Below are positions 5,517-22,754 of a stretch of 43,954 bases of DNA, in pieces (the stretch's first letter is position 1; every line of letters begins with the position of its first letter). The stretch lies in contig JAIVHM010000001.1 in the NCBI GenBank assembly GCA_020201095.1, forward strand, positions 16,214 through 60,167. Direction: 5' to 3'. Source of the DNA: Halomonas sp. (GTDB taxonomy: Bacteria; Pseudomonadota; Gammaproteobacteria; Pseudomonadales; Halomonadaceae). The notes below the pieces were generated by a model. The model did no database searches. It worked only from the letters and a program-made list of their open reading frames with translations, and was not told the DNA's origin. The position numbers were made by a program, and so were the translations under genes.

Positions 5517-7921
<2,405 letters not shown>

Positions 7922-8212: not shown

Positions 8213-8815
8213 ATGCAGCAGCCTTCGCGGCCAGTGGTCTCCAATCAGCCAGGCCCTCACCATGACTAGACGGCATTCGCGTCAGCAGCGCAATGGTATG
8301 AGGGCCAGACAGGCCCGCTGATACTTGATGCAGGTTGCGGCGTGGGGCTCTCGACCCGTCAGCTCGCTGAGCAGTTTCCTGAGCACGCGGTCATCGGTGT
8401 TGATCGCAGCGAAGATCGACTTACCCGGGCCCATGGTGAATTACCTGCCAATGCCTGGTTGGTGCGTGCCGATCTGGTCGATTTCTGGCGGCTGGCTCAC
8501 CAGGCTGGGTGGGCACCCAAGCGCCACTATCTGCTTTACCCAAATCCTTATCCTAAGGCGTCGCATCTAAAAATGCGCTGGCATGGGCACCCGGTCTTCC
8601 CCACACTGTTGGCGCTGGGAGGCTTGCTGGAGGTTCGCTCAAACTGGTCGCTTTACGTTGAAGAGTTCGCTATGGCGGTGTATCAGGTAACCGGACGCGA
8701 GGCCGACGTCAGTGAATGGGTGCCCAGCGGCGAATACTTAACGCCGTTTGAGGCTAAATATCATCAAAGCGGCCAGACGCTATGGCGTTTGCGCGTTGCC
8801 TTGGAGTCGACATGA
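8213..8815 (+). pseudogene. TrmB-like SAM-dependent methyltransferase, interrupted by TAG and internal deletion
   Basis: Translation from the ATG at 8213 (after AGAGGATTAAC) gives MQQPSRPVVSNQPGPHHD, then TAG at 8267-8269, then in the same frame TAFASAAQWYEGQTG, motif I LILDAGCGVGLSTRQLA, GVDRSEDRL, LLYPNPYPK and RWHGHPVFP to the TGA at 8815. This is a methyltransferase of the TrmB-like type (tRNA m7G46) in which PNPY replaces the usual PDPW. Relatives, as I recall them, carry about 20-25 more residues between the GPH and AFA elements. The T of TAG looks like the first base of a Leu codon and the AG the end of a Gln codon, so a deletion in multiples of three would make exactly this stop. The next possible start (GTG 8342) lies inside motif I and would lose SAM binding. 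Probably non-functional unless the stop is a sequence error. Confidence 0.75.
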
Positions 8816-9141
8816 CATTCGTCTATTTGGTGCTTGCGATTATTGCCGAAGTGATTGCCACCAGTGCCTTGAAAGCCTCCATGGGATTTACCCGTCCGTT
8901 GCCAAGTCTTCTGGTGGTTGGTGGTTATGGCGTGGCATTCTATCTATTGAGTCTGGTGCTCCGCAGCTTGCCTGTGGGAATTGCCTATGCCATCTGGGCG
9001 GGGCTGGGTATTGTTCTGGTCACCTTGGTCGGCGTGTTGGTGTTCGGTGAAAAACCGGATTTGCCCGCCGTCGTGGGTATTGGCTTGATCGTCGCCGGCG
9101 TGGTGATGCTGCAAGTCTTTTCGAAAATGAGTGTGCATTAA
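8812..9141 (+). CDS. Small multidrug resistance (SMR) transporter, EmrE-like
   Basis: 109 residues and four membrane helices. The ATG overlaps the methyltransferase stop (ATGA, 8812-8815), so it was probably translated by coupling to that gene. Glu13 in IIAEVIATSALKAS corresponds to the essential Glu14 of EmrE; Tyr59 and Trp62 in VGIAYAIWAGLGIVLVTL match EmrE Tyr60 and Trp63. The helix-4 region (LPAVVGIGLIVAGVVMLQV) also fits. EmrE-type proteins exchange protons for quaternary ammonium drugs or osmolytes across the inner membrane as an antiparallel dimer. A guanidinium-exporter role is less likely given the EmrE-like core. If the stop upstream is real, expression could be reduced. Confidence 0.92.
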   Translation: MTFVYLVLAIIAEVIATSALKASMGFTRPLPSLLVVGGYGVAFYLLSLVLRSLPVGIAYAIWAGLGIVLVTLVGVLVFGEKPDLPAVVGIGLIVAGVVMLQVFSKMSVH

Positions 9142-9151
9142 GGAAAAGCGG

Positions 9152-10627
9152 ATGTTCCGCGTTGGCTGGCAGCGTTGTAGTCGAAGTGTTTGGGGGTGGC
9201 GGTCAGCCGTCGGTGTGCTGAGTTTATTGGTCAGCTGCCCTCTATGGGCTGATTTTAGCCGGGTAGGCCAGCTCCAGGAGAAAGGGTTTGCCGTCAGCGC
9301 CGAGGCGCGGCTGCTCAATGGCAATGCCAATGCGGCACCGCTGGCGAGTATTGAGCCGATGAGCCAGCTTTCGCCGGCATCAGTCACCAAGGCGTATCTG
9401 GCCGCTGCAGCGTTGCAGCGCTTTGGCCCTCAGCATCGGTTTACCAGCGAGCTGCTCAGTTCGGGGAGCGTGCAAGACGGCGTTTTACGCGGCGATTTGA
9501 TTTTTGAAGGTGGCGGCGACCCAGGTCTTACCACCGAAGATATTTGGCGTCTAGTGCAGCGTTTGCAGCAAGCGGGTGTGCGTCAGGTTGAGGGTGCTTT
9601 AGAAGTCAATCAGTGGCGCTTTGGTCCCGTTGACTGCATCACGACTGACCGCTGCGATGCGCTGACGCGTGTCGCCAATGCTTACAGCGCACCGCTTTCG
9701 TCAGCGGGGGTGAATTTTGGCAGTTGGTGTGCCAACGTTGCTCCAGCGTCCACGCCCGGTAACCCGGCGCGTGTGTCGTTATGTGACGGTCAGTCGTTGG
9801 GTACCATGATTGATAACCAAGTGGTCACAAAGCCGGATAACAGCGGCACCGAGCTCTCCGCCGAACGGATCACCAACGGCGACGGGGATGTGTTTCGATT
9901 GAGCGGACAAATATCAACCAATGCCCCTGCGCGGGACGTTTATCGTGGCGCGGGCGATGCGGCAGAAGTCACCGCTGAGGTACTGCTGGACATGCTCGGA
10001 CAGGCAGGGATTAACGTGCGTGATGGCTTCCGACTCACCTCGATACGGCCACCCGGCGATGCGCAGCGACTTGCCGCCGTGGACAGCAAGCCGCTACAGG
10101 AACTGCTGTTGCGCATCATGAACTATTCGAACAACTACATGGCTGATGTGCTGGCCCTCAATCTGGTGGAGTCCCCCCAGGCTCAGCTTCGTCAGGCGGG
10201 ACTGGCGTTGGAGCGCTATGCCGAGACTCTTCCCGGGCATGGGCCGCTGACACTCTACAGCGGTAGCGGGTTGACCACTGAAAACCGCACGTCGGCACAT
10301 GGTATCAATGTGATGCTGACCGAGATGTTCCATGAAAGTGCGCTATTTCCAAGCTTTATCGCGGCCTTTCAGTCACCCGCCAACGGCGTGATGCGATTTA
10401 TCCGGCGTGGTTCTGATACCTTTCAACACAACGTCATGCTAAAAACCGGTACGCTAAACCAGCCGTTCGCTGTGCGCGCTGCCGCTGGCTACTTTCGCAC
10501 GGCGCAAGGGCGTTGGGGGGTATTCAGTGTACTGGTCAACGGCAACGCCAGCACTCCCTACCTGAACTGGTCACAGGTGCTGGATCCGCTGACCAAAGAT
10601 CTTGACGCCATGATTCTCGCCAATTGA
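9152..10627 (+). CDS. dacB: D-alanyl-D-alanine carboxypeptidase/endopeptidase, PBP4 (family S13)
   Basis: 491 residues from the ATG at 9152, with AAGGA seven bases upstream overlapping the end of the SMR gene. A signal peptide covers about residues 1-34 (cleavage after PLWA). The three penicillin-binding motifs are present: Ser77-x-x-Lys80 in SPASVTK, Ser326-Asn-Asn328 in NYSNNYMAD, and Lys431-Thr-Gly433 in LKTGTLN. The long insert between the first two motifs, with GDLIFEGGGDPGLTTEDI, is typical of class C low-mass PBP4. The enzyme trims pentapeptides and cuts D-Ala-mDAP cross-links in the periplasm. Length agrees with the family (about 480). Confidence 0.95.
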   Translation: MFRVGWQRCSRSVWGWRSAVGVLSLLVSCPLWADFSRVGQLQEKGFAVSAEARLLNGNANAAPLASIEPMSQLSPASVTKAYLAAAALQRFGPQHRFTSELLSSGSVQDGVLRGDLIFEGGGDPGLTTEDIWRLVQRLQQAGVRQVEGALEVNQWRFGPVDCITTDRCDALTRVANAYSAPLSSAGVNFGSWCANVAPASTPGNPARVSLCDGQSLGTMIDNQVVTKPDNSGTELSAERITNGDGDVFRLSGQISTNAPARDVYRGAGDAAEVTAEVLLDMLGQAGINVRDGFRLTSIRPPGDAQRLAAVDSKPLQELLLRIMNYSNNYMADVLALNLVESPQAQLRQAGLALERYAETLPGHGPLTLYSGSGLTTENRTSAHGINVMLTEMFHESALFPSFIAAFQSPANGVMRFIRRGSDTFQHNVMLKTGTLNQPFAVRAAAGYFRTAQGRWGVFSVLVNGNASTPYLNWSQVLDPLTKDLDAMILAN

Positions 10628-10652
10628 CGACTTATTTTTTGAGGCAATCGCC

Positions 10653-11024
10653 ATGAAACCAGGGCATACCGGCTTGACGCATTTAGCGCATTCGACGCGC
10701 TACTCATGGAAAGGATTGAAAGCGGCGTTCCTCAACGAAGCCGCGTTTCGTCAAGAGGTCACCATTACGGCCATTCTTCTGCCGTTTGCCTGGTGGATCG
10801 GCGAAGGGCCGGTGAGCTGGCTATTACTGATCGGCAGCTGTTTTTTTGTGTTGGTCGTTGAGTTGCTTAATAGTGCGATCGAAAACGTGGTGGACCGTAT
10901 TGGCACTGAACACCACGAACTCTCCGGGCGGGCCAAGGATATTGGCTCGGCTGCGGTGATGCTGTCGTTGATACTCGCCGGGCTCACCTGGGGGCTGTTA
11001 GGCTGGCAGAAATTCGTCGCCTAA
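10653..11024 (+). CDS. dgkA: Diacylglycerol kinase DgkA
   Basis: 123 residues, three membrane helices, GAGG upstream of the ATG. Signature stretches are NEAAFRQEV at the amphipathic N-terminus, VELLNSAIENVVDRI (the active-site helix with the conserved Glu and Asn) and SGRAKDIGSAAV. The enzyme phosphorylates diacylglycerol with ATP in the inner membrane, recycling the lipid left after osmoregulated glucan or lipid A modification. It lies 25 bases after dacB and may share its transcript. Confidence 0.96.
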   Translation: MKPGHTGLTHLAHSTRYSWKGLKAAFLNEAAFRQEVTITAILLPFAWWIGEGPVSWLLLIGSCFFVLVVELLNSAIENVVDRIGTEHHELSGRAKDIGSAAVMLSLILAGLTWGLLGWQKFVA

Positions 11025-11056
11025 CGTCAGACTTACTTCAGGGCAGCGAGGTCATT

Positions 11057-13935
11057 ATGCAACTTGATGAAGCGTTTTTACCCTTTGATACCTTACCCAA
11101 AGCGCTTCAGCCAGTGACGAAGCAAGCTTGGCAGCGTCTCTGTGAGGCGCTTTCCCAGGCCGACAACGTGGCCGATATGACCCGGCAACCTTGGCCGTCT
11201 GCAGATTGGTCATCGCTGTCCGCTGAACGCCGCAAGGCCCTGGTGCGGGTGCTTTCCATCTCGAGCTTTGCACTCGATACGTTGATCCGTTATCCCGACT
11301 GGCTGACGACACTTGACAGTGGCGGTGAGCTGGATGCCACGCCCGCCCGCGAAGACCAGATTGAACTGTTATCCAGCGCGCTGGAAAATGCCGACGACGA
11401 AGACGCCATGCAGCGGGCCATCCGCCGCTTCCGCCGGGCTCGCATGCTGGGCATTGTGTGGCGCGACCTCAACCGGCCACCAGGCTACTCCATGTGGGAT
11501 ACCGCTCGCGCGGTATCGCAGCTGGCAGAAATTTGTCTTGAAGCGGCGCTTGGCTGGCTTGAACAGTTTTATGCCCCGCGCTGGGGGCTGCCATCCCCCA
11601 CGCGCGACGGCGAACCGCAGCGGCTAGTGGTACTGGGTATGGGCAAGCTGGGGGCTGGAGAGCTCAACCTGTCCTCGGATATCGACCTTATTTTCGCGTT
11701 TGCCGAAAACGGCGAGACCCAGGGCGGCCGCAAGCCGCTTGAGCATCAGGAGTATTTCACCAAGTTGGGTCAGAAGCTCATCGCCGCGCTGGATTTCATG
11801 ACCGCGGACGGGTTTGTTTTCCGTGTGGACATGCGCCTTCGCCCGATGGGCGATGGCGGGCCGTTGGTGGGCAGTTTTGCGATGCTTTCCAGCTATTACC
11901 AGGATCAGGGTCGCGAGTGGGAGCGTTACGCGATGCTAAAAGCGCGCCCAGTCGCGGGGGATCTGGACGCAGGCGAGGAGCTCTTGTCGGGTCTGCGTCC
12001 TTTTGTGTACCGCAAGTATCTCGACTTTGGTGCCATTGAGTCGCTGCGCGAACTGAAAGCGATGATCAACCGCGAAGTGAAGCGCAAAGGCATGCAGCAA
12101 AATATCAAACTTGGCCCGGGCGGCATTCGCGAGGTTGAGTTTGTGGTGCTGGCGTTTCAATTGATTCGCGGCGGGAGGTGGTGGATGATCTGCTGCCTGA
12201 TTACGCCTTCCTTCGCGATATCGAGCACGTCCTGCAGGCTCTGGAAGACCGCCAGACGCAAACACTGCCCAGCGAAGAAACGGATCGTGAACGGGTTGCG
12301 TTTGCCATGGGGCACGATGACTGGCCAAGCCTTATCCACCAGCTGGATGAAGCGCGCGAACGTGTCCGTCAGCATTTCGACGCGGTGATTGCCGAGCCAG
12401 AAGACGAAGTAGAAAACGAAAGCGATGAGCAAACGCCGGGGCTTGAGCAGTGGCGACTGCTGTGGCGCGGTGAGCTGGAGCAGGACGAGGCCCTGGAACG
12501 CCTGGAGGAGGCCGGGTTCAAGGCACCTGACAAGACGCTCACTCAACTGTCTCGCCTGTATCATTCACGTCAGGTGCAGAGCATGCAGCGGATCGGCTTT
12601 GAGCGCCTGGATGCGTTAATGCCTCTGCTGCTAGATGCCCTGGCCGACAATGACACGCCGGACACGGCGCTTTTGCGCGTTCAGCCACTGATCGAATCGG
12701 TCTTGCGGCGCACGGCGTATCTGGCCCTGCTGCGCGAGAACCCCCACGCCCTGGAACATCTGATGCGGTTATGCGCGGCGAGCCCGTGGATCGCCGAACA
12801 GCTGGCGCGCTATCCCATTCTGCTCGATGAGCTGCTGACCCCCGATACCCTCTACACGCCAGCTGATAAAGCCCGCCTGGCCGATGAATTGCGTCAGGCG
12901 CTTAACCGGCTTCCCGAGGATGACGAAGAAGCGCAACTTGAGGCGCTACGGGTTTTCAAGCATGCCCAGATGCTGCACGTGGCTGCCTCGGATATCGTAG
13001 GCACCCGGCACTTGATGAAAGTAAGCGATTACTTAACCTATATCGCCGAGGTGATCCTGGATGCCGTGCTGGCGATGGCCTGGAAGCATCTTGCCGCCAA
13101 GCATGGCGTACCCAGCGGCTGTGATTCGCGGGAGCCAGCATTTTTGATCGTCGGCTACGGTAAGCTCGGGGGGATAGAACTGGGTTACGGGTCTGATCTG
13201 GACCTGGTGTTCCTCCACGATAGCGATGGTCAGGGCACTACCGATGGCCCGCGGCCCATTGATACGCCGGTATTTTTTACCCGCTTGGGCCAGCGAATTA
13301 TTCATTTGCTCACGGCGGTGACCCCAGCGGGCAGTCTTTACGAGGTCGACATGCGGCTAAGGCCTTCGGGTAATTCCGGCCTGTTGGTTACCTCGCTTGC
13401 CGCCTTTGCCGATTATCAGCGCCAGAACGCCTGGACCTGGGAGCACCAGGCGCTGGTGCGCGCGCGCGTGGTCGCGGGCAGCGCGTCGTTGGCCAGCAAT
13501 TTTGACCAGTTGCGCGGCGATATTCTGGGGGGCAAGCGGGATACGACTGCTTTGCGCGAAGAGGTGGTCAACATGCGTCAAAAAATGCGCGATCATCTTG
13601 CCACCAAAAGTGAGGGGGACAGCTTCAATCTCAAGCACGACGCCGGTGGTATGGTGGATATCGAGTTCCTTTGTCAATACGCGGTGTTAGCACTTGCTAA
13701 CCAGACACCGTCGCTGCTGACCTATAGCGATAACATTCGCATTTTAGAGGCTCTGGCAGAGAGTGGGCACTTACCCGAAGAAGAGGCGGAGCAGCTTCGC
13801 GATGCGTATCTTGCGTACCGGAGCGCGACGCATCGGGCTGCGTTGACCGGCGACAAAGCGGTGGGGTTTGCGGCCGACTACGCGGATCACCGGAGTATCG
13901 TCACGGCATTGTGGCAACGTTTTCTGGCGCCTTGA
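11057..13935 (+). pseudogene. glnE: Glutamine synthetase adenylyltransferase/deadenylase glnE, broken by a frameshifting deletion
   Basis: Two consecutive reading frames together make one GlnE. The first (from ATG 11057) carries the N-terminal nucleotidyltransferase domain with GMGKLGAGELN and Asp208/Asp210 in SSDIDL, and reads up to QLIRGG at about 12172, then turns into unrelated sequence ending at 12388. The second frame begins to match at about 12175 (EVVDDLLPDYAFLRDIEHVL, then DRQTQTLPSEE) and carries the C-terminal domain with GYGKLGGIELGYGSDLDLVF, ending at 13935. About 25 residues normally found between LIRGG and the AFLRDIEH region are absent, so the lesion looks like a loss of roughly 75-80 bases not divisible by three. 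GlnE sets glutamine synthetase activity by adding and removing AMP. Both catalytic halves are otherwise well preserved, so the break is recent or artefactual. Confidence 0.85.
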
Positions 13936-13988
13936 TGCAGGGAGTTGGATGGCGATAGCAGAGTGGCTAAGCAGCATGGAGGCGGGCG

Positions 13989-14882
13989 ATGATCGGTAAT
14001 ATCCTCGGTACCTTGCTGCCGGTTTTTTTAATTGCCGGCGCGGGTGCTGCTTACGGGCGCTTTCGCACGCCAGATATTCGCAGTTTAAACACCCTGAATA
14101 TGGAGCTGTTCGTCCCACTTCTGGTGTTTGCTGTGTTGGCCGACCGGCAAGCGCCGTTGGCCGATTATGCTTGGCTGGCAAGCGCGGCAGTGGCGGTAGT
14201 GCTTGGGTCTGGTTTGCTGTTATGGCCCATTGCCCACTGGCTGCGGTTAGATATAAAAACCTTCCTACCCCCGATGATGTTCAACAACTCTGGCAACATG
14301 GGCGTGCCCTTGCTGGTCCTGGCATTCGGTGAGCAGGCGCTTCCAGCGGCGGTTGTGGTGTTCATTGTAGAAATGCTGCTGCATTTTTCGGTCGGCCTCT
14401 ACATGCTCGATCCACGTACGTCGCTGTGGCGTTTGTTGCGCATGCCGATTGTCGCGGCAAGTCTGGCAGGGTTGGCCGTCAACGTCAGCGGGCTAGCGTT
14501 GCCGATGTGGCTGCTCGAGGCTATGAACATGCTGGGTGGGGTATGTATTCCGTTAATGCTGTTTGCGCTAGGGGTGCGGCTGCTGGAGATTGATTTCAGC
14601 GATTGGCGCACTGGCCTACTGGGCGCATTGCTTTGCCCGCTGTCGGGGCTCGTGATTGCGCTACCGCTGATTATTTGGTTACCGCTCAATAGCCTGCAGG
14701 CGGCGGTACTGCTGGTGTTTGCCGCCTTGCCGCCTGCCGTGCTGAATTATCTGGTCGCGGAACAGTACCGACTGTCGCCTCACAAAGTGGCGTCTATCGT
14801 GTTAATCGGCAACCTGGGTAGCTTGGTAGTGATGCCGCTAACCCTGGCCGCTGCCTTTATCTGGCTTCATGCCCCCCAATAA
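13989..14882 (+). CDS. AEC-family (auxin efflux carrier-like) transporter
   Basis: 297 residues in two repeats of five membrane helices, with GGAGG shortly before the ATG. Diagnostic features are the LNMELFVPLLVFAVL helix near residue 36, the broken helix with FNNSGNMGVPLLVLAFGE (about 98-115), and its counterpart IVLIGNLGSLVVMPL near the C-terminus. Members export or import small carboxylates such as malonate or malate, or amino acid-like compounds; bacterial substrates are rarely proven. It follows glnE by 53 bases on the same strand. Nothing unusual in length. Confidence 0.85.
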   Translation: MIGNILGTLLPVFLIAGAGAAYGRFRTPDIRSLNTLNMELFVPLLVFAVLADRQAPLADYAWLASAAVAVVLGSGLLLWPIAHWLRLDIKTFLPPMMFNNSGNMGVPLLVLAFGEQALPAAVVVFIVEMLLHFSVGLYMLDPRTSLWRLLRMPIVAASLAGLAVNVSGLALPMWLLEAMNMLGGVCIPLMLFALGVRLLEIDFSDWRTGLLGALLCPLSGLVIALPLIIWLPLNSLQAAVLLVFAALPPAVLNYLVAEQYRLSPHKVASIVLIGNLGSLVVMPLTLAAAFIWLHAPQ

Positions 14883-14933
14883 AGGCTATTTGTCACGAAA
14901 AGCATCTTGCGGCTGAAAAGGCAGTTTCAAAAT

Positions 14934-15308
14934 CTATCTGTCGCTATCGTCAGCTTTCTTTTCGGTTTCGCTTTTAATCTCGTACTGACCTTCAAGAACA
15001 TCTCGATGGCGCGCGCCAGAAGAGGGCTCAGCGTGGTTGCCACCAATATCTTGGGCCTGTTGTGCGCGCATTTGCTCCATACGCTTTTTCATCTTGTGGC
15101 GGACAAACGGCATCATGGCCCAGCCTACCAATAGGAAAAAAAGGCCCAGCACAACGCCGACTATCATCAGCGCACCAAACGCCAACCAAGTAAAAAGTAG
15201 CTTCAAACTCCCCATGACGCCATTGGGTTGGGTCTGGGTCGCCCGAGCGCGCCACTGGTGGGCGGCCTGCCAGGCAGCGTTACGTTGATCACGATTCATG
15301 TGGGGCAT
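14934..15308 (-). CDS. Unrecognised small membrane protein with charged tail
   Basis: 124 residues from the ATG at 15308, preceded by GGGAGGCTTTC; a longer in-frame start at 15365 lacks a ribosome site. The N-terminus is polar and Trp-rich (MNRDQRNAAWQAAHQW), residues about 33-68 form one long or two close membrane helices, and the rest is charged (RHKMKKRMEQMRAQQAQ, then Glu/Lys/Asp-rich). A short motif VLEGQYEIKSE near the end looks conserved-like. I do not recognise the family. It stands alone, divergent from the BCCT gene. Confidence 0.55.
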   Translation of the reverse strand: MPHMNRDQRNAAWQAAHQWRARATQTQPNGVMGSLKLLFTWLAFGALMIVGVVLGLFFLLVGWAMMPFVRHKMKKRMEQMRAQQAQDIGGNHAEPSSGARHRDVLEGQYEIKSETEKKADDSDR

Positions 15309-15468
15309 GAAAGCCTCCCTCGTTTGGTAACACAGCTTGGAACACACTTGTTGAGCAGAGTTCACCTAGCTTGGTGATAACGTTAAAGCCGCGTTGCATG
15401 CAGAGTGTTTGCGCAGGTGTTAGGCTTTCCGGCCCTAACGCATCAGTTCACTTTAACAGGGTTGTTAT

Positions 15469-16830
15469 ATGGCAAATCATGGAGGCAAGTCGGTGTTCAT
15501 CGCATCGACACTGATTATTTTCGGCTTGGTGGTTGTTGGCGCATCGTTTCCGGAAAGTTTTGGCAGTGCTGCTGAGTCAGCACTCGCGACGGTGACCGAG
15601 TTGTTCGGCTGGTTCTACCTATTTTCCGTGTTTGGCTTTGTGGTATTCCTGTTCGGCCTGGCGCTCAGTAAGTACGGAAAAGTGCGCCTGGGGCCTCAGG
15701 ATAGCCGACCCAACTATTCTTTCTTTTCCTGGATTAGCATGCTGCTGGCCGCCGGGTTCGGCGTGGGTCTGGTGTTCTATGGAATGGCCGAGCCGATGTT
15801 TCACTACATTGACCCGCCCTACGGAGATGTAAACGCAGAAACCGAAGCCTCGGCGCGCTATGCGATCCAATACAGCTATTTTAACTGGGGGATTCACCAG
15901 TGGGCGGCATTTTCTGTCGTCGGGTTGATCATTGCCTATTTTCAGTTTCGTAAGGGACAGGCGGGGCTAGTGTCGTCTGTACTATCATCGGTCACGGCAA
16001 AGCACCCAAAGATACGCCCCTATGCCTCATGGCTCGATGTGTTCGCCGTTGTGGCTACAGTCATGGGGGTGGCGACATCGCTGGGGCTGGGTGTGTTGCA
16101 GATGAACGGCGGGTTGAATGCCGTATTTGGCCTACCGGAAAATGGCTTTTGGCAGTTCGTCATTCTGTTTGTGATGTTTTGCGCCTACATGCTCTCCACC
16201 TGGTCGGGCCTTGATAAAGGCATCAAGCGTTTGTCGAACCTGAACATGATTCTGTGCATTGGCCTGATGCTATATGTGTGGATTGGGGTATTCGGCGGTG
16301 CCGCGCTCAATATGGAGATCGTCGGTGATGACATTGGCCTTGCCGCGGCGACTCAGGACAATATCACTGTGGCGTTGTTTGAAATGTTTGAACTGATGCC
16401 ATTCTCCGGTGTGCTGTCACTCATTGCCATCATGTTGATTTTTGTTTTCCTGGTGACATCCGCGGACTCAGCGTCTTACATCGTGGCGCAAATGACCGAT
16501 AATGGTTCTATCAATCCGCCACTTTACAAGCGGGTGTTGTGGGGTGTGCTGATTGCCGCGATCTGCTTTACCTTGATATTGGCGGGCGGGCTTACCGGTC
16601 TGCAATCGGCAGCGGTGCTGTCTGCGCTACCGTTTACCTTTATTCTCTACATGATGGTGATCGTGCTGGTGCGAGAATTGCGCGCCGATCGTAAAGCGAT
16701 GCTTACCCAGCTCTACCGTCGCCACGGTGAAACCCCTGTGGGGGCCGATGCCTTTGAAGCGGAAGAGCTAGGCGAAGAAGAGCGTTTGCGCCGTGCGCCC
16801 AACGTTGTGAACCGCCGCATTAATCACTAA
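15469..16830 (+). CDS. BCCT-family osmolyte transporter with a missing internal block
   Basis: 453 residues; relatives have about 500-540. The N-terminal half is normal: AAGFGVGLVFYGMAEPMFHY (residues 94-113), SYFNWGIHQWAAFSVVG (136-152) and STWSGLDKGIKRLSNLNM (243-260). The C-terminal half is also normal: VWIGVFGGAALN (270-281) and FLVTSADSAS. Between them, at residues about 266-271 (near base 16270), the end of one helix (ILCIGLML) runs directly into the start of another. In BetP-like transporters roughly 80-90 residues lie there, including the helix with WTIFYWAWW whose tryptophans hold the trimethylammonium substrate; no such motif exists here. The frame is kept. The protein is therefore probably not a working betaine or choline transporter unless the gap is an assembly error. 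The ribosome site is weak (CAGGG). Confidence 0.85.
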   Translation: MANHGGKSVFIASTLIIFGLVVVGASFPESFGSAAESALATVTELFGWFYLFSVFGFVVFLFGLALSKYGKVRLGPQDSRPNYSFFSWISMLLAAGFGVGLVFYGMAEPMFHYIDPPYGDVNAETEASARYAIQYSYFNWGIHQWAAFSVVGLIIAYFQFRKGQAGLVSSVLSSVTAKHPKIRPYASWLDVFAVVATVMGVATSLGLGVLQMNGGLNAVFGLPENGFWQFVILFVMFCAYMLSTWSGLDKGIKRLSNLNMILCIGLMLYVWIGVFGGAALNMEIVGDDIGLAAATQDNITVALFEMFELMPFSGVLSLIAIMLIFVFLVTSADSASYIVAQMTDNGSINPPLYKRVLWGVLIAAICFTLILAGGLTGLQSAAVLSALPFTFILYMMVIVLVRELRADRKAMLTQLYRRHGETPVGADAFEAEELGEEERLRRAPNVVNRRINH

Positions 16831-17012: not shown

Positions 17013-18278
17013 TCAAGCTGTCCGCGAATGGGTTTCGATGCGATTTCGTCCTTGCTGTTTGGCGTGATAAAGATGTTGGTCGGCCTGGTCTAGCAGTGCC
17101 TCTGCGCTGCTATTTGTGTGGACGGATGTGCTGGCGACACCCATGCTGGCAGTCAGATGAGCGTGCGTGCTCGAATAGGCATGAGGAATGGCCAGCGACA
17201 GCACTGCCTGTCGTAAGCGCTGAGCGACCTCCAGTGCGGCTTTTTCATCTCGATTGGGCAAGACGCAGACAAATTCCTCCCCACCATAGCGAGCCAACAG
17301 GTCATGGGTTGGATCGATGCAGTGATTTAGTACCTGTGCCACTGCCCGCAGGGTGTCATCACCCATGGCGTGGCCATAATGATCGTTAAATTCTTTAAAG
17401 TTATCGATATCGATAAAGATAACTGAGAACGGCTGGGCCTTTTGCTTGGCGCGCTTCCATTGCTGCTGATAGAACAGGTCAAAATGCCGCCGGTTGGCGA
17501 CGCCCGTCAGTCCATCAATATGCGACAGGTGGTGGAGCTGGTCGCGTTGCTCCAACCCTTGTTGAAAGGCCTGCAGCAAGTGGTCGAGGCTGTCGACCAA
17601 ATGCCCCAGCTCATCATGGCGATGACCCCGCAACTGGGGTTTTTTCCATTCGCCGGGGCGTTCAGGATCGGCATGCGCGATGGCGTCGTGGACTTTGAGC
17701 AGGGGGCGGGTAATAAAGTAATGGAAGAAAGCAATAATCAATAGGCTAAGGATAAAGGCTTCCATCACGCTGGTCCCAACGACCGATATACTTCGGTCAA
17801 GAAATTGCTGGGTCAGGCGTTGCTCATCAAGCCGAAGCTCGACCTCGCCAACTTCGGCTTCGGGTAAATCGGAAGCCACGTAATAGTTCAGCTGAATTTG
17901 GTAGTGCAGAATATCGCCAAACAGCCGTTGGCTTAACCAGCTCGCTTCAACTCCCTCGGTGGGTGCAAATTCTGCTAGCGGGCTGCCGAAATCGTCACGG
18001 ATGGCGACTTCGGCAATATCATTATCGCGGAATAACCCGTGGGCGATCTGGTGAGCCAGGTCAGGGTTTAGCTGAAAAGCGGCTTCGGCGGCAGCGCCAT
18101 TAACAATAGCCAGTTGTTGTTCAACACGCTGGGTAACATCCTGTCGCATCGACAAAGCGTGATTGAATAGCTCTATACAGCCAGCAATAACGCTGATCAA
18201 TATAGCCAGCAGCAAGGTTAGCAGCGCTTGCTTGGACGTTAGACTACCCGAGCGTAATGGTAGGGGTGTCTTATTCAT
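17013..18278 (-). CDS. Membrane-bound diguanylate cyclase (GGEEF) with periplasmic sensor loop
   Basis: 421 residues from the ATG at 18278 (MNKTPLPLRSG), preceded by GGAG. Membrane helices lie at about 18-36 and 170-189, enclosing a periplasmic domain of some 130 residues; then a HAMP-like linker, and a GGDEF domain (about 252-417) with DIDNFKEFND and the active-site loop ARYGGEEF (GGEEF at 332-336), so it should make c-di-GMP from GTP. The inhibitory I-site (RxxD five residues before the loop) is replaced by PTHD, so product inhibition is probably absent. The start overlaps the binding-protein gene behind it by eight bases, which indicates co-translation and suggests that the periplasmic proteins feed the signal. 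Confidence 0.9.
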   Translation of the reverse strand: MNKTPLPLRSGSLTSKQALLTLLLAILISVIAGCIELFNHALSMRQDVTQRVEQQLAIVNGAAAEAAFQLNPDLAHQIAHGLFRDNDIAEVAIRDDFGSPLAEFAPTEGVEASWLSQRLFGDILHYQIQLNYYVASDLPEAEVGEVELRLDEQRLTQQFLDRSISVVGTSVMEAFILSLLIIAFFHYFITRPLLKVHDAIAHADPERPGEWKKPQLRGHRHDELGHLVDSLDHLLQAFQQGLEQRDQLHHLSHIDGLTGVANRRHFDLFYQQQWKRAKQKAQPFSVIFIDIDNFKEFNDHYGHAMGDDTLRAVAQVLNHCIDPTHDLLARYGGEEFVCVLPNRDEKAALEVAQRLRQAVLSLAIPHAYSSTHAHLTASMGVASTSVHTNSSAEALLDQADQHLYHAKQQGRNRIETHSRTA

Positions 18279-19002
18279 GGCGGCGGGCTCCGTGTGCCTC
18301 GCCAAAGGGAGAGAGGTGGTGCTGAAGCCGCTTGATCAGGTCTTTGGACACGCTGGGGTTGCAGGCAAGATATAGCGGCGCACGATAGAACGTAAACAGG
18401 TGTTGCAGCGCGACGTTTTTCGCATTGGCCAGAAACTCGCCGGTGGCTTTGCCGGTGACGATGACATCGATGAGACCCGCGTTCAAGCGCGCCAGATTCT
18501 CGCGCTCATTGGGCGCGAGCAGAACGTCAATCCCTTGCGCTGCCACATGATTACCCACTGCATCTTCGCGAAAACTGCCCACGCGTAAGTTAGCCAGTTC
18601 TGGTATTGAACTTGCCTTGATATCGCGACCTGCAAGGCTGAACGCCGCCCATTCGTTGACGACTAGCGGCCCTGCCCAGCGAAAGAGAGCCTCGCGCTCT
18701 GTGGTGCGGGTGGTGGAGTAAACGCAGTGCTGGTCGCGCAGGCGCGCAGCGGTGTAGGCCCTAGCCCAGGGAAGCAACCGAAACTCCGCTTCAATATCCG
18801 CGGCACGCAGTCCCCTGCGGAGTACCTGGGTGGCGCTACCCATGATTTGTCCCTGTTCACTTGCGTAATTGAAGGGTGGGTAATCTTCGGTATTAATCGT
18901 CAATGGAGCGGCACTGAGTGGCTGACAAAGCGTCAACAACAATGTTCCAAGTAAAGATCGCCAGCGCGCCGCAATGCGTTGTAGTAGTGCTTTAGTCCGC
19001 AT
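18271..19002 (-). CDS. Periplasmic solute-binding protein, family 3-like (second of a pair)
   Basis: 243 residues from the ATG at 19002 (MRTKALLQRIAARW), which gives a signal peptide ending near QPLSA; a longer frame to 19137 overlaps the preceding gene without a signal. The mature protein opens with LTINTEDYPPFNY, the usual first strand and ligand loop of amino acid-type binding proteins (SBP_bac_3), and continues with WARAYTAARL, CVYSTTRTTEREALFRWAGP and IDVIVTGKATGEF. It shares the layout of the neighbour upstream (E-YPP-NY, the STTRT-RE-FRW-GP segment), so the two are paralogues. No ABC permease or ATPase gene is adjacent, so it likely acts in signalling rather than uptake. Confidence 0.82.
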   Translation of the reverse strand: MRTKALLQRIAARWRSLLGTLLLTLCQPLSAAPLTINTEDYPPFNYASEQGQIMGSATQVLRRGLRAADIEAEFRLLPWARAYTAARLRDQHCVYSTTRTTEREALFRWAGPLVVNEWAAFSLAGRDIKASSIPELANLRVGSFREDAVGNHVAAQGIDVLLAPNERENLARLNAGLIDVIVTGKATGEFLANAKNVALQHLFTFYRAPLYLACNPSVSKDLIKRLQHHLSPFGEAHGARRHE

Positions 19003-21995: not shown

Positions 21996-22754
21996 ATGGT
22001 GGATCACTTGGAAGAACAGTTTCAGGCACTTGGCAGTCAAGAATCGCACAAGCCTGATTATCCCGACCAGGATCACGTACTCATCATCGAGGACGACCAA
22101 CGTCTGGCAGAGCTGACTCGGGATTATCTGGAAGCCAATGGTTTTCAGGTCACGCTGGAGGCAGATGGGGCGAAAGGGGTGGATCGCATTCTGACGCTGC
22201 AGCCGGATCTGGTCATTCTTGATTTGATGCTGCCCGGCGAAGACGGCTTGGCAATCTGTCGTCGCGTGCGGCCCAATTTTGCGGGTCCGATCATGATGCT
22301 GACGGCACGCACAGACGACCTGGATCAGGTGTTGGGGCTTGAAATGGGCGCGGATGACTATGTGCCCAAACCTGTGCAACCACGAGTGTTACTGGCCCGC
22401 ATGCGGGCGCTTTTGCGGCGTGCCGATGGCCCCGCCCCAGATGGCGAAATACGGCTGCGCTTCGAGAATCTTGAAATCGATAATGCCACCCGCGAAGCCT
22501 GGCTATCGGGGGAGCGTATCGACTTGACCAGCGCCGAATTTGACCTGCTGTGGCTGCTGGCTCGGAATGCCGGGCGTGTGCTCACTCGGGAAGAAATTTT
22601 TAACGATCTGCGGGGGATTAAATATGATGGGCAGGATCGCTCGATCGATGTGCGTGTGTCGCGAATTCGCCCAAAGATTGGTGATGACCCTAACCAGCCT
22701 CACCGCATCAAGACGGTTCGCAGCAAGGGCTATCTGTTTGTGAAAGACAGCTAA
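21996..22754 (+). CDS. OmpR-family response regulator, RstA-like
   Basis: 252 residues from the ATG at 21996 (MVDHLEEQF); the start is uncertain, since GGAG is 12 bases away and a GTG at 21978 has no ribosome site. The receiver domain has Asp33/Asp34 in LIIEDDQRL, the phosphorylation site Asp76 in VILDLMLPGEDG, Thr103, and Lys125 in YVPKPVQP. The winged-helix domain reads LTSAEFDLLWLLARNAGRVL and DLRGIKYDGQDRSIDVRVSR and ends IKTVRSKGYLF, strikingly like RstA of Escherichia coli. The N-terminus has about 25 extra residues before the receiver. It pairs with the kinase 23 bases downstream. Confidence 0.9.
   Translation: MVDHLEEQFQALGSQESHKPDYPDQDHVLIIEDDQRLAELTRDYLEANGFQVTLEADGAKGVDRILTLQPDLVILDLMLPGEDGLAICRRVRPNFAGPIMMLTARTDDLDQVLGLEMGADDYVPKPVQPRVLLARMRALLRRADGPAPDGEIRLRFENLEIDNATREAWLSGERIDLTSAEFDLLWLLARNAGRVLTREEIFNDLRGIKYDGQDRSIDVRVSRIRPKIGDDPNQPHRIKTVRSKGYLFVKDS

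Follow-up and report, generated by a model that had tools for sequence, protein, structure and literature searches.

The window analyzed here is the whole 43,954-bp stretch at the end of a scaffold of 60,167 bp (G000:C120:16214-60167) of the draft Halomonas/Vreelandella genome G000, an assembly of 3,039,165 bp in 284 contigs with a completeness of 89.93% and a contamination of 2.17%, which looks like a metagenome bin. Three genes in the window carry N-free joins at which sequence present in related genomes is missing (Table 1). The loss in the TrmB-like methyltransferase gene is a multiple of three, yet a TAG at 8267-8269 straddles the junction and comes 18 codons past the ATG at 8213. In glnE, of which a single copy was found in G000, the frameshift leaves ORFs at 11057-12388 and 12178-13935. 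The BCCT transporter gene codes for a protein of 453 amino acids in the window as compared to 541 amino acids in the relative G013; it adjoins an intact and ordinary GGDEF diguanylate cyclase gene (17013-18305, minus strand).

Table 1. Interrupted genes and junctions (window positions) and N-free deletions counted on each scaffold of G000.
Feature	Position	Strand	Observation
Methyltransf_4-family (TrmB-like) methyltransferase gene	8213..8815	+	Interrupted at 8265-8272; protein of the relative 221 aa
glnE (glutamine synthetase adenylyltransferase/deadenylase)	11057..13935	+	Two frames after 76-bp loss; protein of the relative 984 aa
BCCT (betaine/carnitine/choline) transporter gene	15469..16830	+	88 codons missing in frame
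Junction 1	8265..8272		N-free join; net 63 bp missing vs G013 and G036
Junction 2	12174/12175		N-free join; net 76 bp missing vs G013 and G036
Junction 3	16277/16278		N-free join; net 264 bp missing vs G013 and G036
N-free deletions, C120			63, 76, 264 bp
N-free deletions, C10			124, 90, 124, 257, 107 bp
N-free deletions, C40			365, 118/120 bp
N-free deletions, C180			129, 190, 74 bp

Comparison of the Window With Related Genomes

Two complete relatives, G013 and G036, served as references, with identities along the window of 88.8-90.4% and 86.4-89.0%, respectively. For the C-terminal part of GlnE the nearest named relatives among the best 80 of 187 were Vreelandella subterranea and Halomonas sp. 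A40-4 (94% each), followed by the MAG Halomonas sp. HL-48 (89%) and V. arcis (87%). A sequence-only reading of the window had placed deletion-like lesions near 8268, 12175 and 16272; all three were present in the comparison with the references, within 6 bp of these points. Its claim that the rest of the window is free of such lesions was borne out as well, no other gap or break of at least 35 bp being detected relative to G013 and G036; the largest smaller gaps were 31 bp near 17016 (relative to G013) and 34 bp near 850 (relative to G036).

The distance between the flanks of each junction was surveyed in 80 named relatives (the best 80 of 187 confirmed stretches). Exactly 76 bp lay between the flanks of junction 2 in 80/80 of these. 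Both flanks of junction 1 were found in 39 of the 80, and in all 39 they are 66-67 bp apart, as compared to 4 bp in the window. Of the 80, 45 yielded both flanks of junction 3; these were separated by 264 bp in 41, by 262 bp in one and by 265 bp in one, and the distance was large, negative and uninterpretable in the other two. The junctions of the window were absent from every one of the 80 surveyed relatives with interpretable flanks, no distance being near zero; independent strains sharing the junctions, which the sequence-only reading had named as part of the evidence that would count against it, were found nowhere among them. Within G000, the 76-bp glnE segment had no match elsewhere, a search that is in itself uninformative, and the 262-bp BCCT segment had only two partial matches elsewhere, both of 76% identity and probably paralogues.

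Losses on Other Scaffolds

Four scaffolds of G000 were compared with G013 and G036: C120 (60,167 bp), C10 (47,880 bp), C40 (22,730 bp) and C180 (13,205 bp), in sum 143,982 bp. Together with C284, the latter three are the four longest among 20 sampled contigs; C284 was left out because neither G013 nor G036 has a collinear counterpart, and C180 was chosen partly for its N run, which makes the set a non-random sample. When the G013 stretch L036 was compared with G000, one long match was found beside C120 (C38, 1.7 kb), which was kept out of the counts. Events of 35 bp or more were considered, and an ORF of at least 120 amino acids in G013 was used to decide whether an event was inside a coding region.

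N-free deletions agreed by both references numbered 13, ranged from 63 to 365 bp and were found on 4/4 scaffolds compared (Table 1). Twelve of them lay wholly inside a G013 ORF; a 124-bp event in the 3' part of dapC (C10 6415) is counted in the 13 and not in the 12. By contrast, the control comparison of G036 with G013 over the same regions gave six events of at least 35 bp in 156,649 aligned bp, none of which was wholly inside an ORF. The density of N-free deletions on the four scaffolds was about one per 11 kb, possibly an overestimate because the set is non-random, and the window with three in 44 kb shows a rate no higher than that of the other compared scaffolds. The tightest group is found on C180, where three clean losses and one N run fall between 8217 and 11970 (3.8 kb). 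The lengths of the deletions disregard reading frame, as by chance: 4/13 are multiples of three relative to G013 and 5/13 relative to G036, where one measures 120 instead of 118 bp. This 118/120-bp event (C40 17960) has 28 unaligned bases, lies inside what reads from its sequence as a LysM/FimV-like variable protein, and is the least certain among the 13.

Several events were left out of the 13. Three were seen relative to one relative only (167 bp at C10 38748, 142 bp at C40 20959 and, in an ORF, 45 bp at C180 10447). The others were an intergenic 38-bp loss (C10 23186), two intergenic places with a rearrangement or insertion (C10 7583 and C40 22071), the end at 157 on C120 (G036 only), five N sites, and losses of kilobase size (C10 43417 and C40 5124). 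The latter are N-free relative to both relatives and amount to about 2.0 kb at C10 ~43417 and about 1.5 kb at C40 ~5118; they may reflect true differences in gene content or be bigger joins of a like nature.

An intergenic repeat of about 105 bp, dispersed and ending in inverted sequences, GGTGCCGAG...CTCGGCACC, was observed on C10 (L124) at 7616-7720 and on C40 at 22110-22194, and none was found in C120. It matched three places in the G013 stretches examined and no place in the corresponding stretches of G036, with several more matches elsewhere in both genomes. Being dispersed and having inverted ends, the repeat is MITE- or REP-like, and part of the 127-169-bp intergenic differences between G013 and G036 is probably due to its different occurrence in the two.

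Presumably indispensable genes are among those hit. The single dnaE match found in G000, on C10, lacks 124 bp and is split between two frames, one covering residues 1-83 and the other residues 122-1167; the two pieces are 96% and 99% identical to the protein of G013. In accA, the match ends at residue 224 of 318, with a frameshift and 257 bp missing, and the only other match in G000 is a 31% partial one. Moreover, bamA lacks 90 bp, an N run interrupts rseP, and on C180 two lesions are in ahpF and one is in prmC, with the N run in moeB. DnaE, AccA and BamA belong to the essential proteins of gammaproteobacteria. Lesions in genes that are presumably indispensable point to a fault in the assembly and not in the cell, with the proviso that a further dnaE or accA copy may lie outside the G000 sequence searched, as the draft is incomplete and some stretches are written as N.

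Junctions and N Runs

Per junction, the longest direct repeat averaged 3.3 bp (relative to G013) and 3.4 bp (relative to G036) over all 13, as compared to 3.5 bp at random, which is chance level. The longest of all 13 was 5 bp, identical to the random 95th percentile, and the ends of junction 3 share a 4-bp repeat, likewise at chance level. Short direct repeats, the search for which had been recommended from the sequence alone, thus did not exceed chance at the 13 junctions, and a deletion mechanism mediated by direct repeats (slippage or recombination) was rejected on this ground. Relative to G013, the aligned parts on either side of the junctions were separated by -2 to +1 bases at 11/13, and by 6 and 28 bases at the other two; with almost no overlap, no repeat of k-mer length was collapsed. 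Drop-out of segments with extreme base composition was likewise rejected: the mean GC content of 16 missing segments inside ORFs, which included three N sites and one 45-bp gap relative to G013 only, was 59.6% as compared to 58.0% (SD 5.8) for random segments, nothing marked.

N runs of 245 and 113 (C120), 25 and 5 (C10) and 74 (C180) were present, and none on C40; a 9-N run on contig C30 was left out of this comparison. With the Ns included, the shortfall relative to the relatives was 130-133 bp at the 245-N run, 161 bp at the 113-N run (G036 only), 135 bp at the 25-N run, 73 bp at the 5-N run and 122 bp at the 74-N run. Since the relatives hold 73-161 bp more at these places, the gap sizes were underestimated, and by amounts like many of the N-free losses. 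The 245-N run on C120 (scaffold positions 15969-16213) ends just before window position 1, and the 113-N run lies upstream at 9619-9731; between the aligned flanks of these runs there are about 380 bp (245-N run; G013 and G036) and about 310 bp (113-N run; G036).

Small indels of 1-2 bp in ORFs of C120, C10 and C40 were also counted relative to G013, giving 29 in about 120 kb for G000 and 23 in about 142 kb for G036. The rate in G000 is about 1.5 times that of the control, which by our estimate is within chance. These counts tell, less strongly than the other observations, against advanced decay, and the mild excess leaves room for some decay or base-level error.

Discussion

Most likely, the three lesions in the window do not reflect genuine biology. 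Judging from the sequence comparisons, we consider it highly probable that they are assembly artefacts, namely scaffold joins at which the gap was underestimated and the contig ends were abutted without Ns. We infer both the artefact status itself and the step at fault, the estimation of gaps during scaffolding. Following this, we propose that read pairs order the contigs and that the gap between neighboring ends would often be estimated too short. Where the estimate was positive, a short N run would be written; where it was zero or negative, the ends would be abutted, or wrongly filled, without an N, and a clean deletion of some 60-370 bp would result. In the window, three joins of this sort would then have landed in the TrmB-like methyltransferase gene, in glnE and in the BCCT transporter gene.

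The sequence-only reading had suggested an assembly or polishing fault in this stretch as one possible common cause. The common assembly cause is supported by N-free deletions on all four scaffolds, by the short N runs and by the presumably indispensable genes that are hit. Confinement to this stretch is not, given that C180 holds three deletions and an N run in 3.8 kb.

Not every loss is explained by underestimation alone, and a different artefact, in which gaps were filled wrongly or a graph step collapsed strain variants instead of ends being abutted, has to be weighed. Losses of 190, 257, 264 and 365 bp exceed the shortfall at the N runs, so that one constant bias cannot account for all of them, and in a bin-like assembly such as G000 strain mixtures would be expected. 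However, the near lack of overlap at the junctions tells against a collapsed repeat of k-mer length, and most of the lengths overlap those at the N runs. We therefore regard a different artefact in place of abutted ends as unlikely; faulty gap filling may nevertheless have contributed as a second step.

Alternatively, the losses could be genuine short deletions in a genome undergoing gene loss, i.e., natural pseudogenes at an early stage of genome reduction. The observed deletions are clean and two relatives agree on them, the assembly is smaller (3.04 Mb) than G013 (3.85 Mb) and G036 (4.15 Mb), and the raised rate of small indels in ORFs points in the same direction. However, that excess is within chance by our estimate, the junction repeats do not go beyond chance, the small size of G000 also fits a completeness of 89.9%, and gaps written as N are present on 3/4 scaffolds. 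Moreover, the single dnaE and the one clear accA detected carry frameshifts, yet the remainder of each is highly conserved. Taken together, this makes a gene-losing genome very improbable. It is scarcely credible that the deletions are real in the population, as short losses occurring at random over the genome with the functions kept by other cells or by further chromosome copies of a polyploid; if they were, genes for replication and fatty-acid synthesis would be among those losing stretches.

The sequence-only reading had also considered a local process removing short segments and had drawn attention to the spacing of 3.9 and 4.1 kb. Phase-variable excision, a hot spot of recombination or a mobile element would be examples of such a process. 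Three lesions do lie within 8 kb on one strand with none in the remaining window, but this is extremely unlikely to reflect such a process, as like lesions occur on 4/4 scaffolds compared, more densely in places (three in 3.8 kb on C180), no shared repeat beyond chance was found, and the flank distances in relatives are near constant (80/80, 39/39 and 43/45, the other two being uninterpretable) with no alternative junction. A local hot spot was accordingly rejected on account of the other scaffolds. Nor was any information found in the spacing: the lesions are weakly clustered, with a probability of P = 0.088 that three points placed uniformly over the 43,954 bp would all lie within 8.01 kb of one another.

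If the lesions are scaffold joins, as we propose, joins without Ns give healthy genes the appearance of broken ones and introduce false pseudogenes and false stop codons into drafts. False in-frame variants would also arise, as exemplified by the 453-amino-acid BCCT protein, which appears intact, and gene loss read from the G000 assembly would be misleading.

A limited literature search did not find a metagenome-specific description of such joins. Related behavior has been described for scaffolding in general. In the passages of PMC3504050 concerned with gaps, negative gaps are adjacent contigs that overlap by mate-pair distance and not by sequence, and under-predicted gap sizes are suspected behind some overfilled gaps. 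The G000 case resembles these drafts in that neighboring contigs would be judged too close and gaps under-predicted; it differs in that the drafts described there are of eukaryotes and have long reads, whereas the gaps of G000 were inferred from complete relatives. According to the part of PMC3158087 dealing with gap estimation, pairs that span a gap must exceed it in length, so that an uncorrected estimate is biased; by our reasoning the direction of this bias is towards gaps that are too short, as at the N runs of G000. The assembler presented there corrects for the bias.
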